This document shows positions 780-7,155 of a DNA stretch of 21,421 bases, piece by piece. Every line of letters begins with the position of its first letter. Position 1 is the first letter of the stretch. Origin of the DNA: a virus. The notes under the pieces were generated by a model. The model did no database searches. It was not told the DNA's origin and saw nothing but the letters and a program-made list of their open reading frames with translations. The stretch spans positions 1 through 21,421 of the IMG/VR virus record IMGVR_UViG_3300047546_000514; one strand, 5' to 3'. The translations under genes were made by a program, and so were the position numbers.

Positions 780-1079
780 ATGGCACATTTCGCTAGAGTA
801 GAAAACGGCATTGTTACTGAAGTACTTGTCGTACCTGATTCACAAGAACATCGTGGGCACGAATATCTTTCTATGGATGTAGGCTTAGGTGGTATGTGGT
901 ACAAGACCTCATACAACACTTATGGGGGCGTTCATAAACTTGGTGGAACTCCTTACCGCAAAAACTATGCGGGAATTGGATACACTTTCGATAAGAACCG
1001 TAATGCATTTATTCCGCCCAAACCAGATGGTAACTGGGTACTAAATGAACAGACTTGCCTATGGGAGGAAAGTAATTGA
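780..1079 (+). CDS. MAHF-family phage structural protein, short form
   Basis: 99 aa. AGGAGG (768-773) overlaps the stop of the preceding gene and is well placed for ATG 780. The protein opens MAHFARVENGIVTEV and carries YKTSYNTYGGVH, RKNYAGIGYTFD, AFIPPKPDGNWVLNEQTCLWEE. I recognise this as a small family widespread in marine and cyanobacterial myoviruses, where it sits beside fibre genes; its function is unknown to me. A paralogue lies at 3381-3755. This copy stops right after the LWEE motif, so it lacks the usual continuation (PVPYPNDG and a final YSWNEETLAWEE-like segment) that the paralogue keeps. It overlaps the next gene by 4 nt. Association with the fibre is inferred from gene position only. 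Confidence 0.75.
   Translation: MAHFARVENGIVTEVLVVPDSQEHRGHEYLSMDVGLGGMWYKTSYNTYGGVHKLGGTPYRKNYAGIGYTFDKNRNAFIPPKPDGNWVLNEQTCLWEESN
1064..1078 (+). promoter_or_regulatory. Shine-Dalgarno deciding a TTG start
   Basis: GGAGG at 1064-1068 lies 7 nt before TTG 1076-1078, which overlaps the TGA (1077-1079) of the MAHF gene. No ATG or GTG in this frame gives a better-placed start, so the large fibre gene most likely initiates at TTG by translational coupling. Confidence 0.7.
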
Positions 1080-3160
1080 GTATCCGTAGAGCGCAAGATG
1101 AACGTATAGAAGGCACTCCAGATGGCAATACCGCCATAGTGGAGATTTCTGACGTTCCTGATGCTCCGACTATTGGTACGGTATCAGTAACTAATACAAC
1201 GACTGTATCTGTTCCTTTTACTGCCGCTGCTACTGGCGGTACTCCTACTTCTTATACCGTAACGGCAACTCCTACAGTTGGTGACATTTCAACTAATGCT
1301 GGAACAACTTCTCCTAGAACTGTTACTGGAACATTTGCCGCTAATACTGCATATACATTTACTATCAGGGGCGTTAATTCAACTGGTACTGGCCCTGTGT
1401 CATCTACTAGCAATACAGTTACTCCACTTTCTGGTTTAAGTATTGATTTCATAGTTGTTGCTGGAGGCGGCGGTTCTGGCGGTGTTGCTGGTGGCGGTGG
1501 AGGTGCTGGAGGTTGTCGTTCTTCTGTTAGCGTAACAGGTGGAGGTGGAAGTCCAGAATCTGCTTTACTTTTAAATACGTCTTTAAACTATCCTGTTGTT
1601 ATTGGTGCTGGCGGTTCTCGTGGAACATACAATTCTGCTGAATATCAAAGTAATGGAGGTAATTCAGTTTTTGCCTCAATCACTTCTCTTGGTGGTGGTT
1701 ATAGTAGTGGTGAGTCTGCAGGCGTATCAGCCGACGGAGGCTCAGGTGGCGGTGGCGGTTATTTAAACAACGGTATTGGTACATCTGGTCAAGGATATAA
1801 TGGTGGTACGGGAAGAAATCCTAATGGAGAACCTTACGGAAAGGGCGGCGGTGGTGGTGCTGGCGCGGCAGGTGGTAATGCGTCAGGAAATAGCGCAGGT
1901 AACGGCGGAAATGGTATCTACAATAACCTGACTAATTCGACTTCTTCAGGTCAAAATGTTGGTGGAAACTACTACGTAGCAGGTGGCGGTGGTGGTGGTA
2001 TTTATTACACAATCTTTGGTGGCAGTGCAACAAATGTTGGAACTGGCGGTTTAGGCGGCGGTGCTAATGGTGCGCAAGGTGGAAATGCTGGAACTGCTGG
2101 CACTGCTAATACTGGCGGTGGCGCAGGTGGTCCAGGTTCTAATGGTTCTAACTTGCCTGACGGCGCGGCAGGTGGTTCAGGAATAGTTATTTTGCGTTAT
2201 TCAGGTTCGCAAGCCGCAACAGGTGGAACTGTTTCTTCAACTGGCGGCTACACTTATCACAAGTTTACTTCTAGCGGAACTTTTTCTCCTACGGGTTCAA
2301 CAACATCTGCCAAAGCAACGGGTGGAACTATTTCAACAGACCAAACATATTGGTATCACACATTTACATCATCAGGCACATTTACACCAAGTTCAACTAT
2401 TACTTGTGATTACCTAGTAGTTGCTGGTGGAGGTGGCGGTGCGCCGCAAGTGGGTGGTGGTGGCGGTGCTGGTGGATTACGGGCACAGACATCTGTTTCA
2501 TTCACAAACGGAACCCCATACACGATTACCGTTGGTGCTGGCGGTGCGTATAGAAGTGGTACGCAAGTAGATGGAAACTCTGGAAATAACTCATCTATTA
2601 GTGGTAGTGGATTTAGTACGTTTTCAACGACAGGTGGCGGTGGTGGTGGTCGACACGGAGCAACTGCAGGTGCTGGTTTAAGTGGTGGTTCTGGTGGCGG
2701 TGGCGGTGGTGGTAACTCAGGAGTCCCTTCTGGAGGTAGCGGAAACGCTGGTAGTTATTCTCCAGTAGAAGGTTATGCTGGAGGTGCTGGTGCTGGAGGT
2801 GGCTCTTATCAATACTATGCTGGCGGTGGTGGTGGTGCTGGAGGAACAGGTTCTGCTGGTCAGCAACTGGCAAACACTGGTGGAGCAGGCACAAACACAT
2901 ACAACTCTATAAACTTCTCCTCTTGGCTAACCGTTACTAGTATGGGAGTTTCAGGCTATCTAGCGGGTGGCGGTGGAGGTTGCGCTAACTCTTCAGGTAC
3001 TGGTGGCGGAGCAGGAGGTTCAGGTGGCGGTGGTGCAGGTGGAGATAACACAGTTCCATCAGACGTAGGAAGAATTAACACTGGAAGCGGTGGTGGTGGA
3101 GGTCGTAATGGCGGCGCTGCTGGTGGTTCGGGACTTGTTATTATCAGGTATGCGGTTTAA
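1076..3160 (+). CDS. Large glycine-rich tail fibre with FnIII domain and two Gly-rich adhesin domains
   Basis: 694 aa from a TTG start. Order: short N-terminus (1-26); a fibronectin type III-like domain (about 27-118; VPDAPTIGTVSV ... TAYTFTIRGVNSTGTGPVSSTSNTVTPL); Gly-rich domain A (about 124-376, DFIVVAGGGG to SGIVILRYS); a tandem linker with two copies of an ATGGT...FTSSGTF motif (about 381-444); Gly-rich domain B (445-694, DYLVVAGGGG to SGLVIIRYAV). Both Gly-rich domains start and end with the same signatures as the protein ending at 769. I infer a receptor-binding fibre or adhesin displayed on the virion. FnIII modules are common accessory surface-binding domains in phage structural proteins. 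The gene lies in an adhesin cassette upstream of the connector genes rather than beyond the baseplate, so capsid decoration cannot be excluded. Confidence 0.8.
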   Translation: MSIRRAQDERIEGTPDGNTAIVEISDVPDAPTIGTVSVTNTTTVSVPFTAAATGGTPTSYTVTATPTVGDISTNAGTTSPRTVTGTFAANTAYTFTIRGVNSTGTGPVSSTSNTVTPLSGLSIDFIVVAGGGGSGGVAGGGGGAGGCRSSVSVTGGGGSPESALLLNTSLNYPVVIGAGGSRGTYNSAEYQSNGGNSVFASITSLGGGYSSGESAGVSADGGSGGGGGYLNNGIGTSGQGYNGGTGRNPNGEPYGKGGGGGAGAAGGNASGNSAGNGGNGIYNNLTNSTSSGQNVGGNYYVAGGGGGGIYYTIFGGSATNVGTGGLGGGANGAQGGNAGTAGTANTGGGAGGPGSNGSNLPDGAAGGSGIVILRYSGSQAATGGTVSSTGGYTYHKFTSSGTFSPTGSTTSAKATGGTISTDQTYWYHTFTSSGTFTPSSTITCDYLVVAGGGGGAPQVGGGGGAGGLRAQTSVSFTNGTPYTITVGAGGAYRSGTQVDGNSGNNSSISGSGFSTFSTTGGGGGGRHGATAGAGLSGGSGGGGGGGNSGVPSGGSGNAGSYSPVEGYAGGAGAGGGSYQYYAGGGGGAGGTGSAGQQLANTGGAGTNTYNSINFSSWLTVTSMGVSGYLAGGGGGCANSSGTGGGAGGSGGGGAGGDNTVPSDVGRINTGSGGGGGRNGGAAGGSGLVIIRYAV
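2216..2407 (+). repeat. Tandem ATGGT...FTSSGTF linker repeat
   Basis: Two copies of about 33 codons joining the two Gly-rich domains. The first begins at residue 381 (ATGGTVSSTGGYTYHKFTSS) and the second at residue 414 (ATGGTISTDQTYWYHTFTSS). Each ends in FTSSGTF followed by Ser/Thr/Pro. In known proteins this motif typically precedes a Gly-rich domain, so the extra copy may mark where a domain was lost or where modules recombine. Confidence 0.7.
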
Positions 3161-3380: not shown

Positions 3381-3755
3381 ATGGCCCATTTTGCAAAGGT
3401 AGAAAATGGAATAGTCACTCAGGTCATTGTTGCCGATAGCGTTGTTTGGTGTGAAGAAAACTTGGGTGGAGAATGGGTTCAAACTTCTTACAATACTTTT
3501 GGCGGTGTCCATGCAAACGGTAAAATTGCACTACATAAAAATTATGCTGGTATTGGTGATAACTTTGATGGTGTTGGGTTTTATGCCCCACAACCTTATC
3601 CATCATGGACACTAAATAAAGACTCTTATCTATGGGAAGCCCCAGTACCTTATCCTAATGACGGATATCTACACCCTAACTATGGAGGAACAGGTACAGG
3701 AGTAATGTATTCGTGGAATGAAGAAACCTTAGCCTGGGAAGAACTCGCCCCTTAA
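3381..3755 (+). CDS. MAHF-family phage structural protein, full-length form
   Basis: 124 aa, ATG directly after TAATA of the preceding gene with AAAGGAAG upstream (about 3366-3373). The N-terminus MAHFAKVENGIVTQVIV is closely similar to the 780-1079 product, followed by WVQTSYNTFGGVH, HKNYAGIGDNFD and PYPSWTLNKDSYLWEAPVPYP. Unlike the shorter paralogue, it continues into PNYGGTGTGVMYSWNEETLAWEELAP, the expected family C-terminus. The two paralogues flank the large fibre gene, giving a repeated fibre/MAHF layout. Function is unknown; a fibre-associated or virion role is inferred from context. The DNA of the two copies differs at many third positions, so they are not a recent duplication. Confidence 0.75.
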   Translation: MAHFAKVENGIVTQVIVADSVVWCEENLGGEWVQTSYNTFGGVHANGKIALHKNYAGIGDNFDGVGFYAPQPYPSWTLNKDSYLWEAPVPYPNDGYLHPNYGGTGTGVMYSWNEETLAWEELAP

Positions 3756-3793: not shown

Positions 3794-4327
3794 ATGCGTG
3801 GTTCTAAAGTACAGGGTAGATTCAAAATAGACTTCGAAACGATGTCTATGGATGAAGGCATGATTGATGAACTACGCGACCCTGTCGGAACTGTAGTCGA
3901 CTGGTGGACTTGGAACCCAACAGAATTTGCCGATAATTACGAAGACTTTATTGACCCAATCTACGACGTAAGTAATCAAACTGATACTAAGGGTCGTCGT
4001 TGGGATGAGCCATTCAAGTTGCCAGTTATTTTGGCGCAACAAATACGTGGTCAAAACGTAATGAATGAACGAGGTTTTTATACCATTGATACTTTGCGCC
4101 TTGTAGTTGCTGTAGACGATGTCAACAGACTTCTTCCAGCAATGATAAGCAGCCCTACAGACCACATCAAGGACCGCATCATCTTCCAGAACCACGTGTT
4201 CACACCTATGCGAGTAAACCCACGTGGCAGGTACAAGGAACGCTATTCCGTTGTTACCATTGACTGTACTCAAGTCAATGCTGAAGAGTTAGTAAATGAC
4301 CCACAGTTTCAGCAATACGCAGAATAA
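3794..4327 (+). CDS. Putative head-tail connector (stopper-like) protein
   Basis: 177 aa; AAAGGA (about 3777-3782) lies upstream of ATG 3794. The acidic, Trp-rich N-terminal part (VVDWWTWNPTEFADNYEDFIDPIYD) is followed by a predicted beta-rich part ending DRIIFQNHVFTPMRVNPRGR, KERYSVVTIDCTQVNAEELV and DPQFQQYAE. That last pattern (a strand covering a surface quantity, an RGR turn, then a YxVVTIDxxQV strand) resembles head-completion/stopper beta-barrel proteins. The type-1 neck order stopper, gp10-like, terminator, sheath would fit if the small genes after it are an insertion. No family-level motif is diagnostic, so a different minor virion protein is possible. Confidence 0.4.
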   Translation: MRGSKVQGRFKIDFETMSMDEGMIDELRDPVGTVVDWWTWNPTEFADNYEDFIDPIYDVSNQTDTKGRRWDEPFKLPVILAQQIRGQNVMNERGFYTIDTLRLVVAVDDVNRLLPAMISSPTDHIKDRIIFQNHVFTPMRVNPRGRYKERYSVVTIDCTQVNAEELVNDPQFQQYAE

Positions 4328-4336
4328 GGAGCCCTC

Positions 4337-4480
4337 ATGTCCTTTGAGCCAGAAATAGACCCAGACCTCTTTGATGAGGATTTTGTTGAGGAAATTGACC
4401 ATGAATTCGACATGGCTGAAGACTATGATGACCATGCTTGGGATGAAGAAGAACTAGCAGAAGAGGAAGATAATGGCTAA
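4337..4480 (+). CDS. Highly acidic 47-aa protein
   Basis: A short gene from ATG 4337 (AAGGAG upstream at about 4326-4331) to TAA 4478-4480. Of 47 residues, 24 are Asp or Glu and none is Lys or Arg (MSFEPEIDPDLFDEDFVEEI...DHAWDEEELAEEEDNG). It is the first gene of a tightly coupled train; its last eight bases, ATGGCTAA, also hold the start of the next gene. Every following gene in the train encodes a strongly basic, Lys-rich or Cys/Lys-rich product. Function is unknown. The charge contrast suggests, as inference only, an antagonist, chaperone or DNA-mimic partner of the basic peptides. Confidence 0.65.
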   Translation: MSFEPEIDPDLFDEDFVEEIDHEFDMAEDYDDHAWDEEELAEEEDNG

Positions 4481-4649
4481 AGCAACATCAAAGCAAAAAG
4501 GTAAAGTTGAAAAGGTCATGCGTGAATACAAGTCTGGCAAGTTAAAGTCAGGCAAGAAGGGTCCAGGAAAAGGACCAGTAGTTAAGTCACGTAAGCAGGC
4601 CGTTGCTATCGCTATGAGCGAAGCGGGAATGTCTAAAAAGAAGAAGTAA
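4473..4649 (+). CDS. DUF6496-like Lys-rich small protein
   Basis: 58 aa (MAKATSKQKGKVEKVMREYK..., ending GMSKKKK). The arrangement KQKxKVEKVMxEYKxGKLKSG followed by VVKSRKQAVAIAMSEAG is what I recognise as the DUF6496 family, found in many phages and bacteria with no established role. The start overlaps the preceding stop in ATGGCTAA, and the purine-rich AGAGGAAG (about 4462-4469) inside the upstream gene serves as Shine-Dalgarno. The end overlaps the next gene by one base (TAATG). The strong positive charge suggests nucleic-acid contact, which is inference. Confidence 0.7.
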   Translation: MAKATSKQKGKVEKVMREYKSGKLKSGKKGPGKGPVVKSRKQAVAIAMSEAGMSKKKK

Positions 4650-4831
4650 TGCGCCGTAAAAAATCACCTGGTGCTCGTGCAGGAAAAGCACCTCAGAAAC
4701 AGGTTCGTACAACTCTTACAGAGGGTAAGTACGAGTCAGGTGGAGCCAAGTTGCGCAAAAAGCGTGGCGGCTATGTTCGTAAGCCAAAACCTCCTATCCG
4801 TTACACACATCGTAAGAAGGTTGTGCCGTGA
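4649..4831 (+). CDS. Basic 60-aa protein, unknown
   Basis: Starts in a TAATG junction (TAA 4647-4649, ATG 4649-4651) and ends in a GTGA junction with the next gene. The product is Lys/Arg/Gly/Pro-rich (MRRKKSPGARAGKAPQKQVR ... GGAKLRKKRGGYVRKPKPP ... YTHRKKVVP) with hardly any acidic residues and no hydrophobic core, so it is probably disordered or folds on nucleic acid. It resembles ribosomal-protein or histone-like tails in composition only. Translation is presumably coupled to the upstream gene, because only a weak AAGAAG precedes the start. Confidence 0.65.
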   Translation: MRRKKSPGARAGKAPQKQVRTTLTEGKYESGGAKLRKKRGGYVRKPKPPIRYTHRKKVVP

Positions 4832-5058
4832 AAAAAGAAAAGTCAAAGACCATCAAGGTTCAGGGTATTAAGCACACCGTCAAGAAGAACAAGAAGGGCG
4901 ATGTGGTTGTTGACCACGAGGCTAAAGCCAAGGCTGGAAAATGGGACAAGATTAACCTGACCAAAAAGGGTGGGTCTAAGACAATTAAGCAGGGTGTCAA
5001 GGCCGTCAAGGACTGGCATAAAGATAATCCTCATAAAAAGGAAAAGAAGAATGGCTAA
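4828..5058 (+). CDS. Lys-rich 76-aa protein, unknown
   Basis: GTG start within GTGA at the end of the previous gene; AAGAAGG (about 4814-4820) is the likely ribosome-binding site. The product begins MKKEKSKTIKVQGIKHTVKK, contains GDVVVDHEAKAKAGKWDKINLTKKGG and ends KQGVKAVKDWHKDNPHKK followed by KEKKNG. The central VVVDHEAKA and KTIKQGVKAVKDW segments could form a small alpha/beta core between basic tails. Its 3' end repeats the junction used at 4473: ATGGCTAA supplies the C-terminal NG-stop of this gene and the MAK start of the next. Confidence 0.65.
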   Translation: MKKEKSKTIKVQGIKHTVKKNKKGDVVVDHEAKAKAGKWDKINLTKKGGSKTIKQGVKAVKDWHKDNPHKKEKKNG

Positions 5059-5200
5059 AAAGTCTGACCCATGCTGGGACGGTTACGTTCAGGTTGGCAT
5101 GAAGATGAAGAATGGTCGTAAAGTACCCAACTGTGTTCCAGACCGTTCAGGTCGAAACAAAATTGCAAAGCCGACAAAACAGAAAGCAGGTAAGAAATAA
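5051..5200 (+). CDS. CWDGY...PNC-motif 49-aa phage protein
   Basis: ATG 5051 is chosen over an upstream in-frame ATG at 4970, because a longer version would run deep through the preceding gene while 5051 has AAAAAGGAAAAGAAG just before it. The 49-aa product is MAKKSDPCWDGYVQVGMKMK, NGRKVPNCVPDRSG and a basic tail. The motif DPCWDGY...G.K...G.KVPNCVP recurs in phage proteins, both free-standing and as a C-terminal tag on virion proteins. Cys8 and Cys28 are the conserved pair. The function is not known to me. It ends in a TAATG junction. Confidence 0.7.
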   Translation: MAKKSDPCWDGYVQVGMKMKNGRKVPNCVPDRSGRNKIAKPTKQKAGKK

Positions 5201-5319
5201 TGTGCAGCACTTGTGGATGTATGAAACCAAAAGATAAGCACGGTGAGAAGACTCTAGCCGCTGCAAACAAGAAGTATGCAAAGAAGAAGGACGACAAGAA
5301 GAAGAAGGGCAAGAAATAA
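5200..5319 (+). CDS. CxxCxC Lys-rich 39-aa peptide
   Basis: Starts in TAATG (5198-5202) and ends in TAATG (5317-5321). The product begins MCSTCGCMKPKDKHGEKTLA and ends in an uninterrupted basic tail (KKDDKKKKGKK). The N-terminal Cys2, Cys5 and Cys7 could bind a metal or an Fe-S cluster, although a single cluster of three Cys would need a fourth ligand or oligomerisation. Too short for homology-free assignment. The regular gene spacing and the preserved reading frame between coupled junctions argue that it is real. Confidence 0.6.
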   Translation: MCSTCGCMKPKDKHGEKTLAAANKKYAKKKDDKKKKGKK

Positions 5320-5381
5320 TGGCTCTCTCTTGCAAAATGAAGAATTGCAAGTGCTCCTGCAAAGTTTGCAAAGGAAAATAA
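5319..5381 (+). CDS. 20-aa Cys-rich micropeptide
   Basis: A very short ORF, MALSCKMKNCKCSCKVCKGK, from the TAATG junction at 5317-5321 to TAA 5379-5381, directly adjoining ATG 5382. Five of 20 residues are Cys (positions 5, 10, 12, 14, 17) and six are Lys. The preceding AAGAAGAAGGGC gives a plausible ribosome-binding site. It looks metallothionein-like in spacing, but that is composition only. It is supported mainly by exact packing between two coupled genes with no spare bases; without it there would be a 62-nt gap. Confidence 0.5.
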   Translation: MALSCKMKNCKCSCKVCKGK

Positions 5382-5582
5382 ATGAAAAGCCTATCTCCTA
5401 AGCAGAAGAAGATTGCTGCCCTTGCTGGTAACAAGAACAAGATTGATGCTGCTGATTTGGCAACTTTGCGTGCTGGTAAGCAAGGCAAGGCCGCTGCTGA
5501 TAAGAACAGGCCTCAAATCAAGAAGGCTGTTGCACAGGCGAAGGGTAAGAAGCAAGCAATGCCAAGAAAGCGTGGTATGTAA
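5382..5582 (+). CDS. Lys/Ala-rich 66-aa small phage protein
   Basis: ATG 5382 directly follows the preceding TAA; AAAGGAAA (about 5370-5377) is a usable Shine-Dalgarno. The product opens MKSLSPKQKKIAALAGNKNK and continues IDAADLATLRAGKQGKAAAD and a basic tail ending MPRKRGM. The N-terminal LSPKQKKIAALAG and DAADLATLRAGK look like two short helices, a pattern I have seen in small phage structural-region ORFs. No function is known. It ends in TAATG with the next gene. Confidence 0.65.
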   Translation: MKSLSPKQKKIAALAGNKNKIDAADLATLRAGKQGKAAADKNRPQIKKAVAQAKGKKQAMPRKRGM

Positions 5583-5866
5583 TGAAGAAGCCACCTATGA
5601 AGGGCAAGTACACCAAGAAGTCTGATGAAAAGATGGACTCTTATTTGACCAAGAAGGCTGGACTCGACAAGGAAGAAAAAGAAGAGTTCGAAAAGAAGGA
5701 TAAAGCCCACGGCAAAAAGAAGAAGCCAAAGACTCTTCAAGAAGATGTCAAAGTTGATAAGAAGATTATCAAGGGCATAAAGAAGAAAGAAAAGGCCCAC
5801 GAAAAGAAGGAAGGCAAGAAGGGCGAAAAAGCCGAAGAAAAGCGGGAGAAGAAAGAAAAGAAGTAA
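5582..5866 (+). CDS. Lys/Glu-rich 94-aa protein ending the small-gene train
   Basis: Starts in TAATG and ends at TAA 5864-5866, seven bases before a strong terminator stem. The first part, MKKPPMKGKYTKKSDEKMDS followed by YLTKKAGL, is a plausible conserved motif. The rest is an alternating Lys/Glu stretch (KEEKEEFEKKDKAHGKKKK, DKKIIKGIKKKEKAHEKKEG) predicted to be a charged single helix or disordered. Related phage ORFs with KKSDEKMDxYLTKKAG motifs exist to my knowledge without assigned function. An antisense ORF at 5513-5869 is a shadow of the AAG-rich codons. Confidence 0.65.
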   Translation: MKKPPMKGKYTKKSDEKMDSYLTKKAGLDKEEKEEFEKKDKAHGKKKKPKTLQEDVKVDKKIIKGIKKKEKAHEKKEGKKGEKAEEKREKKEKK

Positions 5867-5872
5867 CAAGTT

Positions 5873-5900
5873 AGGCCCCTCAAGCAGGGGCCTTTCTTCT
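5873..5900 (+). terminator. Intrinsic terminator after the small-gene train
   Basis: AGGCCCC (5873-5879) pairs with GGGGCCT (5887-5893) around the loop TCAAGCA, followed by TTTCTTCT (5893-5900). The GC-rich seven-pair stem plus T-rich tail fits a rho-independent terminator. It closes the 4337-5866 gene train and separates it from the connector and tail genes that follow. Confidence 0.85.
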
Positions 5901-5907
5901 ATCCTAG

Positions 5908-5961
5908 CCTTATCGGAAATCCGTGCGGACTCCGTGTAGCACCCACTACTTGCGATAAAGG
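5908..5961 (+). promoter_or_regulatory. Possible structured leader (three-way junction) before the 57-aa gene
   Basis: CCTTATCG (5908-5915) can pair with CGATAAAGG (5953-5961, one bulged A). Enclosed are a hairpin around TCC-GTGC-GGA (5920-5929) and one with GTAG/CTAC (5936-5939 with 5946-5949). The closing strand runs into AAAGGGG (5957-5963), the ribosome-binding site of the ATG at 5970, so folding could hide it. Found by eye, with no folding energy computed. The 103-nt region is otherwise non-coding, and no convincing -35/-10 pair stood out. Confidence 0.3.
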
Positions 5962-5969
5962 GGATTTAA

Positions 5970-6143
5970 ATGGCTTGGAAGCCTTGGTATGAACGTGCTG
6001 CCGAAATGAACGGCAAAGAAGTTGAAGAGTTCATGCGTGGCATCTTTGGTTGGAAACCAAAAGATAAACGCCCAATCATTACTGGTCTTGTCGCAGGCTA
6101 CGTTGGTGGCAAAGTCGCTGCGAAGGCTAGTAAGAAGAAGTGA
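5970..6143 (+). CDS. 57-aa protein with Gly-rich hydrophobic segment, unknown
   Basis: ATG 5970 is preceded by AAAGGGG (5957-5963). The product opens MAWKPWYERAAEMNGKEVEE as an amphipathic N-terminal half. It continues FMRGIFGWKPKDKRP, a short hydrophobic run IITGLVAGYVGGKVAA (residues 36-51) with a GxxxGxxG glycine-zipper pattern, and a basic end KASKKK. The hydrophobic run is just short of a standard transmembrane helix but could insert or pack in a membrane. The gene overlaps the next one by 4 nt (GTGA) and is the first gene after the terminator, so it may lead the connector/tail transcript. Confidence 0.6.
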   Translation: MAWKPWYERAAEMNGKEVEEFMRGIFGWKPKDKRPIITGLVAGYVGGKVAAKASKKK

Positions 6144-6457
6144 ATAGACACACAGTACATAGCGCCCTGAATAAAGCCAGTCAAGAAACGACTAGGCTTC
6201 TTTCCGCACACCTGCGCACGGAAGCCCGCAAGAGTGGCTGGTCAGATGACATTGTTCGCTCTATGCATGTCACTTATGACAAGGACGGCTTTAAGACCCA
6301 CGTGAGCAAGGCTCACCATGACCGTGCTCTTGATTTTGAATATGGCACCCCTGATTCTCAACCTACTGCTGCAGTTCGACGTTTCAATAATCGCACAGCA
6401 GAGGCTCAACATTTCCTTGTGAACCGTCTCTACAAGCACCTTGAGGACTCACTATGA
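6140..6457 (+). CDS. HK97 gp10-like neck/tail-completion protein (putative)
   Basis: 105 aa from GTG 6140 within a GTGA overlap. The N-terminal helix (MNRHTVHSALNKASQETTRLLSAHLR) is followed by SGWSDDIVRSMHVTYDKDGFKTHV and then DFEYGTPDSQPTAAVRRFNNR. A long helix, then strands, then a conserved (L/F)EYGTxxxxPxAxxR element is typical of the HK97 gp10-like family at the head-tail interface. Position between a stopper candidate and a terminator candidate, just upstream of the sheath, fits that role. It ends in ATGA with the next gene. Confidence 0.55.
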   Translation: MNRHTVHSALNKASQETTRLLSAHLRTEARKSGWSDDIVRSMHVTYDKDGFKTHVSKAHHDRALDFEYGTPDSQPTAAVRRFNNRTAEAQHFLVNRLYKHLEDSL

Positions 6458-7155
6458 GTTTCCTACTTGCTGAAGACGAAGCCCTACGTGACTTACTTGT
6501 AGGAATGACTGTTACTGACCAAAAGCAAAATGGTGCACGTAATGTTGGTGTGTGGTTTGGGCAACCTGACCAAGAGTTACGTGAGCAGAAGTACCCCTAC
6601 ATCACCATAGACATGATTGATATTGCTGAAGATTTCACACGTGCAATGCGTGGCAAGGTTAGACCAGCCTACATTCAAAATCCAACTAATATGGTAGATG
6701 CAGCACAAGGTGTTCAACAGGTTACGTTTGATACAACCGAACATGCTTGGGAAATTGACTATCCAATTCCAGTTAATCTTGATTATCAAATCACTACATA
6801 CTCTCGTCAACCACGTCATGACCGTCAAATTTTGGCGCAGTTGCTATACACAAAGATTCCACTTCGATACGCTGTCCTTTTGACGGGTCCAAATACCGTC
6901 TATGGCACGCATCGTCGTTTGGATGTTCTGGACGTTTCTAAACGAGATGTTTCAGAGAATGGAAAGCGTTTATTTGTAAACGCAATCACTGTGCGTATCT
7001 CATCCGAGATTGCACGAGAAACCTTCACCAAACTCTACAAGGCGCAAGAACTCACTATCACAGGTGTCACTGATAGCGATGGTAATACTGACGGAAGTCA
7101 GGTTATTGGTCGTGGTCAGTTCACTAAAATTGACTCAATTATAACGGCACCATAA
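6454..7155 (+). CDS. Putative tail terminator/neck protein
   Basis: 233 aa starting in the ATGA overlap with the gp10-like gene. It contains LREQKYPYITIDMIDIAEDF, a middle HAWEIDYPIPVNLDYQITTYS followed by RQPRHDRQILAQLLYTKIP, and a beta-rich end. The sequence element 'P.itidmidi...' then 'ipvnLdyqi.tySr.prhdr.i...l' fits the alpha/beta tail-terminator fold (lambda gpU or T4 gp15 role), in which the domain caps the tail tube and joins it to the head. The immediate downstream neighbour is the sheath gene. Assignment relies on context and pattern, since I recognise no unique signature. Confidence 0.45.
   Translation: MSFLLAEDEALRDLLVGMTVTDQKQNGARNVGVWFGQPDQELREQKYPYITIDMIDIAEDFTRAMRGKVRPAYIQNPTNMVDAAQGVQQVTFDTTEHAWEIDYPIPVNLDYQITTYSRQPRHDRQILAQLLYTKIPLRYAVLLTGPNTVYGTHRRLDVLDVSKRDVSENGKRLFVNAITVRISSEIARETFTKLYKAQELTITGVTDSDGNTDGSQVIGRGQFTKIDSIITAP

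Follow-up and report, generated by a model that had tools for sequence, protein, structure and literature searches.

The window analysed here, a viral DNA fragment of 21,421 nucleotides (nt) (21.4 kb; IMG/VR record IMGVR_UViG_3300047546_000514), contains a train of nine chained open reading frames (ORFs) at positions 4337-5866. The first encodes an acidic protein and the following eight encode basic peptides of 20-94 amino acids (aa). This layout had been described in a sequence-only reading of the same DNA, and our analysis confirms it, including the 24 D/E and zero K/R residues of the first protein and the terminator (5873-5893) that ends the train. Coordinates are inclusive and count the stop codon, and all features lie on the + strand:

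4337..4480, + strand: acid, 47-aa acidic protein (D11 E13 K0 R0, net charge -24) that opens the train, with the best Shine-Dalgarno sequence
4473..4649, + strand: p2, 58-aa DUF6496 protein, net +16, with an 8-nt overlap with acid
4649..4831, + strand: p3, 60 aa, K/R-rich, net +19, with a GARAGK motif
4828..5058, + strand: p4, 76 aa, basic, predicted small alpha/beta protein, net +17, with a KWDKINLTK motif and a GTG start
5051..5200, + strand: p5, 49 aa, with a CWDGY...VPNCVP motif, net +11
5200..5319, + strand: p6, 39 aa, MCxTCGCxKPKDKHG, net +11, three Cys, present in most relatives
5319..5381, + strand: p7, 20-aa Cys/Lys peptide with five Cys, chained by a 1-nt overlap, with counterparts in relatives
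5382..5582, + strand: p8, 66 aa, basic, with a weak EF-hand/dockerin-like loop in relatives
5582..5866, + strand: p9, 94 aa, Lys/Glu-rich, net +17
5873..5893, + strand: intrinsic terminator of the train, a hairpin whose stem differs between relatives while pairing is kept

Together, the eight basic peptides contain 138 lysines and 19 arginines in 462 aa (30% lysine, net +113), with individual net charges of +6 to +19. The gaps between successive genes are -8, -1, -4, -8, -1, -1, 0, and -1 nt, so that each junction is overlapping or abutting. The longest GG-containing Shine-Dalgarno match (AAGGAG) is that of the first gene, and most internal starts follow the AAG/AAA-rich 3' end of the preceding gene, some with AAAGGA, a pattern that would fit translational coupling.

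For comparison, 80 IMG/VR loci that encode a related sheath were retrieved, and the 45 with both flanking genes were tiled, resulting in 34 distinct trains. Pooled dN/dS values are 0.17 for acid, 0.09 for p2 and p3, 0.15 for p5, 0.07 for p6, 0.12 for p7, 0.16 for p8 (from four orthologs only), and 0.07 for p9, in each case from sequences that share ancestry and are thus not independent counts; for p4, synonymous sites are saturated and pN/pS is 0.25. These ratios clearly indicate purifying selection on each reading frame. Overlaps make up 216 of the 303 junctions in the distinct trains (181 of 1 nt (TAATG), 23 of 4 nt, and 12 of 8 nt; also non-independent because of shared ancestry), and stop/start overlaps at successive genes, conserved among relatives, are the mark of a translationally coupled operon. 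Co-production, which the sequence-only reading had proposed, is well supported by this strict coupling in 34 distinct trains and by the one conserved terminator. Chance ORFs were rejected because dN/dS is low (0.07-0.17), gene order around the train is conserved in 45 viral contigs, and the terminator stem keeps its pairing despite sequence differences between relatives. Synteny in relatives, without which that reading was to be given up, is abundant and extends beyond these contigs to distant lineages.

The flanking features lie in the following order around the train:

3794..4327, + strand: conn1, 177-aa head-tail connector-region protein, 5' neighbour of the train, 28% identical to a GiJojo gene
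5914..5963, + strand: RNA leader with two hairpins, in front of the downstream operon
5970..6143, + strand: q57, 57 aa, basic, first gene after the RNA leader
6140..6457, + strand: q105, presumed gp10-like neck protein
6454..7155, + strand: tail-terminator-position protein, 32% identical to the GiJojo tail terminator region

The conn1 gene precedes the train in 45 of 45 tiled loci; its counterpart in the Streptomyces phage GiJojo lies directly behind the capsid genes, and Pfam and PHROG searches with conn1 gave no match. Genes for sheath (PF17482) and tube (PF06841) proteins follow further 3' of the train. We take q105 to be HK97-gp10-like, based on its EYGTP motif and general knowledge, with no library match. 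With conn1 upstream and the neck, tail terminator position, sheath, and tube genes downstream, the placement of the train within a connector block, as read earlier, stands. At the level of sequence, these comparisons establish nine real, co-selected, and coupled genes in the head-tail block. The contractile-tail genes of the window are similar to their counterparts in GiJojo and other Streptomyces myoviruses, and the corresponding slot of GiJojo and BRock (tailspike, gp77, gp78) contains no train. As whiB is restricted to the actinobacterial phylum (PMC6802176), the WhiB genes found in 8 of 10 related contigs point to actinobacteria as hosts of this lake-water virus.

Variability of the train is found both in gene number and in gene content. 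The relatives have 6-14 basic genes per train (mean 9), with p4 present in all 34 distinct trains, p3 in 26, CWDGY in 19, and DUF6321 in 15; the recurring families are DUF6496, DUF6321, CWDGY...VPNCVP, and the RKSLF/KKW type. Modules are fused and shuffled between relatives, as in L035, in which tails of the p8 or p9 type are attached to an MCxxCGC head. In distant lineages (connector ~33-43% and sheath ~30-50% identical), the same slot is still filled by basic genes. The acidic gene is first and coupled in 34 of 34 trains of the close relatives, its product having a net charge of -11 to -24. It is absent in 31 of 31 distant relatives, all of which still have basic genes at this position, and was not seen in the marine trains read. 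This absence suggests that the basic modules are the constant part and that the acidic gene was added in one branch; by this comparison, it is an optional, lineage-specific partner.

Some trains and their modules depart from this arrangement. Within the train of L073 (5685-6149), we found a 154-aa ORF with nine Cys, similar to endonuclease VII/HNH proteins, as if a homing gene had been inserted, and an HNH_3 protein closes the train of L335 (3973-4266). One relative (L009, record G001, 63522-63800, and L375, 10569-10862) lacks DUF6321 in its train; instead, its terminase large subunit is flanked by a gene with DUF6321 on one side and a basic RKSLF-like gene on the other.

Family assignments are sparse. 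The p2 protein belongs to DUF6496 (Pfam PF20106; 48.3 bits vs. a gathering cut-off of 24, E 1.3e-12), a family without assigned function, and its predicted model consists of two helices (pLDDT 78). The sequence-only reading had recognised only DUF6496 and perhaps the CWDGY protein; DUF6496 is indeed the only Pfam match for the train in the window, but p5 matches eight PHROGs without assigned function (best 5.6e-10) and the relatives add DUF6321. The latter family (PF19846, cut-off 28.5 bits) has no match among the train ORFs of the window; it is a train member in many relatives, with 89-93 bits (up to 92.6), and occurs in 497 phage records. Members of the p8 family in relatives match EF-hand/dockerin families at 12-18 bits (E 0.005-0.1), under the Pfam cut-offs; a DxNxNGKLxxxDF loop resembling EF-hand/dockerin calcium sites is found in L013 (5530-5676), L305 (3353-3514), and L335 (3370-3543) and is degenerate in the window. 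Sequence searches of the PDB with CWDGY, DUF6496, DUF6321, and p4 gave no meaningful match. Likewise, tblastn of p2, p3, p4, and p6 against annotated phages gave no match, an absence that the low-complexity filter makes weak evidence, and the collection of papers searched contained none naming DUF6496 or DUF6321.

One train protein, p4, is strongly conserved. Compared with L305 and L309, in which synonymous sites are saturated for all genes considered, p4 is 88-90% identical at the amino acid level, vs. only 36-45% for connector, tail terminator, and sheath (sheath ~39% in relatives of this type). Identity of p4 remains at 90-96% even in L300, L307, L310, and L314, contigs without a visible connector or sheath gene. 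Such a pattern would reflect either exchange between lineages or a constraint far stronger than that on virion proteins. As identity is 88-96% at saturated synonymous distance, compared to 36-45% for sheath and connector, the partner of p4 probably changes little, which would agree with an invariant partner like DNA. The predicted p4 model (pLDDT 81) has clear matches in the BFVD only to unannotated phage proteins, and a search of 84,980 bacterial and archaeal genomes yielded no confirmed relative of p4 and hence no cellular source.

The same modules are also found in phages unrelated to the window, both as free genes and as parts of larger proteins. The CWDGY...VPNCVP motif occurs in 244 phage records, mostly within larger proteins. 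In gp13 of the halovirus HSTV-1, which adjoins the capsid gene, the motif follows a Peptidase_S78_2 (prohead protease) domain and precedes a weakly predicted coiled coil. It thus shares the motif of p5, set between the protease and coiled-coil parts, but is a 473-aa acidic fusion protein, whereas p5 is a free 49-aa basic peptide. The motif-bearing gp18 of the Rhodobacter phage RcZahn lies between the capsid protease and the major capsid protein, and an Actinomycetia phage has a protein with the CWDGY motif near the portal. Near its terminase genes, Synechococcus phage ACG-2014f encodes an 880-aa protein (net +79) that combines CWxGY and DUF6321. In T7-like marine phages (HTVC201P and P-SCSP2), DUF6321 is found as a free small gene between the scaffold and capsid genes: in HTVC201P, this position is occupied by gp30-32 (net +14, +15, and +19), and P-SCSP2 has five small ORFs between scaffold and major capsid protein, one with DUF6321. 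Further examples are the seven-gene train gp36-42 of HTVC033P (net +15 to +22) and gp48-51 of MEP402, a basic train just 5' of the terminase. These marine podovirus clusters (HTVC033P gp36-42, HTVC201P gp30-32, and MEP402 gp48-51) resemble the train of the window in their tiny, largely overlapping genes with net charges of +14 to +24, and share the DUF6321, RKSLF, and KKW families with its relatives. In contrast, they belong to unrelated morphotypes and hosts and have no visible acidic first gene; in the papers found, they were not described as a unit.

On one viral contig, RKSLF, KKW, another basic gene, and p4 are lined up in a row, and directly behind them lie an acidic 369-aa gene (net -27) and a gene for a structural protein of the head-and-packaging class. 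Of 71 unrelated contigs with DUF6496, ~17 have a DUF6321, RKSLF, or KKW module nearby (a few kb away at most), a count that includes some near-duplicates and has no null model, and SU10_adaptor (head-tail adaptor) is the commonest match among the DUF6496 neighbours in unrelated contigs (16 of 102). Sequence comparison thus establishes that the basic genes were gained, lost, and fused as modules, and that they recur beside head and packaging genes of unrelated aquatic phages. In cyanophages OL473597 and OR473000 and the Methylophilales phage MZ577098, CWDGY or DUF5824 modules are located on or beside cytidylyltransferase/NMNAT-like proteins; this class has repeatedly been reported from cyanophage virions, and the modules might therefore mark virion-carried enzymes.

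Proteomes of purified virions were examined for two cyanophages with module-bearing proteins. In S-CREM2, 52 of 219 proteins were detected in the virion, including gp137 and gp160 (PMC10665884), which carry DUF6321 and CWDGY, respectively. In S-SZBM1, 30 of 218 were detected, with ORF 139 listed and ORF 192 not (PMC9146016); the former carries CWDGY and the latter DUF6321. The detection of three of the four module-bearing proteins (nominal p = 0.02) is suggestive only, as the test is small and ignores the easier detection of large proteins. A known precedent for small basic proteins in phage heads are the internal head proteins of T4, which are basic, ~8-20 kDa in size, present in ~360 copies each, and DNA-binding at low salt, and one of which protects DNA from restriction (PMC9026906). 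The train resembles IPI, IPII, and IPIII, several small basic, late, DNA-binding proteins that are packaged in hundreds of copies and ejected with the DNA (PMC9026906), in that its products are small and basic (20-94 aa, net +6 to +19). Unlike these, it is a single coupled operon whose products are far more numerous, much smaller, and without a sequence match, and p4 and p2 are strongly conserved, which the T4 proteins are not. We do not file the train as T4 internal proteins because the cleavable shared leader is missing and the virion presence of the train peptides is only putative, but they may work like them.

Taken together, we give about an even chance to the explanation that the train encodes late, head-associated, DNA-contacting basic proteins that are most likely packaged, similar in action to the T4 internal proteins but outside that family. 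The train would be a late operon module co-producing small lysine-rich proteins that enter, or act on, the assembling phage head, with their positive charge mediating DNA contact. The peptides would most likely be packaged alongside the genome and leave the head with it, as the T4 internal head proteins do, and could help to compact the DNA, neutralise its charge, or protect it on entry; the acidic protein perhaps shields the basic peptides before packaging, which is speculation. We infer the presence of these tiny proteins in the virion, their DNA binding, and their purpose, with support from the location of the train between head and tail genes and its conserved order in 45 contigs and in lineages with only ~39% sheath identity. 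Purely as an illustration, eight peptides at 360 copies would supply ~41,000 positive charges, ~1/5 of the phosphates in a 100-kb genome. Of the options offered by the sequence-only reading, the nucleoprotein or virion-internal one is best supported, via the module fusions, the head-gene neighbours, and the cyanophage virion proteomes. Several observations weigh against this explanation. No shared ~10-residue N-terminal capsid-targeting leader is visible by inspection of the nine train N-termini, some marine trains adjoin lysis or terminase genes and not capsid genes, and CWDGY also occurs in acidic halovirus proteins and is not itself a DNA-binding signature. Moreover, the detected cyanophage proteins are large multidomain proteins from another phage lineage, and detection favours large or abundant proteins. 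Finally, comparison of the predicted models with the PDB gave no significant structural match for p2 or for p4 (best E 1.5, VIA-align Z <=2.9).

Alternatively, the peptides could be host-directed nucleic-acid binders that are made late and act in the cell rather than in the virion, on the nucleoid, by RNA or ribosome binding, or by blocking nucleases or superinfection. Coupling and a common terminator fit any co-produced set, the relatives differ in gene content (6-14 basic genes), as they do in host-interaction genes, and HMO-2011-type and pelagiphage sets are located in accessory regions near lysozyme genes. Still, we regard this as unlikely given the position between head and tail genes, the fusions to prohead protease and scaffold-like proteins, the module-bearing proteins detected in virions, and a conservation of p4, p2, and p6 that is unlike that of arms-race genes. 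It is also improbable that the peptides are head-assembly cofactors, which would bind an acidic scaffold or capsid protein in the prohead, help recruit DNA, and leave before maturation. In the window family, the train follows the head genes and is flanked by connector and neck genes; of the four module-bearing ORFs in cyanophages, three are found in mature virions; and the virion proteins that p4 would need to fit are much less conserved than p4 itself. Such a role would, on the other hand, agree with the genes that T7-like marine phages have between scaffold and capsid gene and with the p4 train directly 5' of the acidic 369-aa gene and a capsid-type gene.

Both remaining alternatives start from individual members of the train. 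In a charge-balanced complex, the acidic protein would be an obligate chaperone of the basic set, comparable to histones and histone chaperones. In line with this, the acidic gene opens every train of the close family and is coupled there (34 of 34, net -11 to -24). Its lack in 31 of 31 distant relatives and in the marine trains makes such a complex very improbable; an obligate acidic-basic pair was rejected as a general rule on the former count, and one acidic plus many basic partners, as suggested by the sequence-only reading, is not upheld as the core idea, the acidic gene being restricted to the close relatives. Least probable of all is that the Cys-rich p5, p6, and p7 are metal or redox microproteins with an incidental Lys content. 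The CxxCxC and CxCxCxxC patterns are indeed conserved in p6 and p7 and recur as N-terminal MCxxCGC modules on other basic tails, but six of the nine genes lack cysteine, and the common property is a net charge of +6 to +19.

Beyond the window and its relatives, we tentatively propose, with clear reservations, that aquatic phages of unrelated lineages and hosts share an exchangeable set of tiny Lys-rich modules (DUF6496, DUF6321, CWDGY, RKSLF/KKW, and p4-type), used as separate coupled genes or as domains within large proteins, that coats the packaged genome as a phage chromatin with a dozen basic proteins per capsid. The modules occur in hundreds of records of phages infecting the bacteria that are most abundant in fresh water and the sea (actinobacteria, SAR11, and picocyanobacteria). 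They are nonetheless still classed as DUFs or left without annotation, and such short genes are readily overlooked. Should the modules be packaged, double-stranded DNA phages would commonly bring sets of basic proteins along with their genomes, in contrast to the textbook view in which the DNA is naked and its charge is balanced by ions. This idea is directly testable in HTVC201P and P-SCSP2, two cultured phages with trains among their head genes.

A separate feature of the locus is the 50-nt RNA leader (5914-5963) between the train terminator and q57. It is found in at least 119 viral stretches and only upstream of q57 homologs. The 43 distinct versions support two hairpins, with 90.5% of cells paired vs. 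75.7% in shuffled controls, 85 vs. 27 doubly changed cells, and a covariation of 0.330 vs. 0.108 (reached in 0/500 shuffles) and of at most 0.064 for slid structures. An invariant CCC loop is able to pair with the GGGG Shine-Dalgarno sequence six bases 5' of the start codon; as this possible CCC-GGGG pseudoknot is invariant, covariation speaks neither for nor against it. An Rfam search of the window gave no family match for the element. The element resembles a leader for controlling translation of the neck/tail operon and is a candidate new cis-regulatory RNA, in which the pseudoknot could mask the Shine-Dalgarno sequence.

Finally, upstream of conn1, the window encodes a 694-aa glycine-rich tail/adhesin-like ORF (1076-3160) with two small paralogues on either side (780-1079 and 3381-3755), both beginning with MAHFA(R/K)VENGIVT. 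Proteins similar to this pair also stand before the connector gene in relatives.

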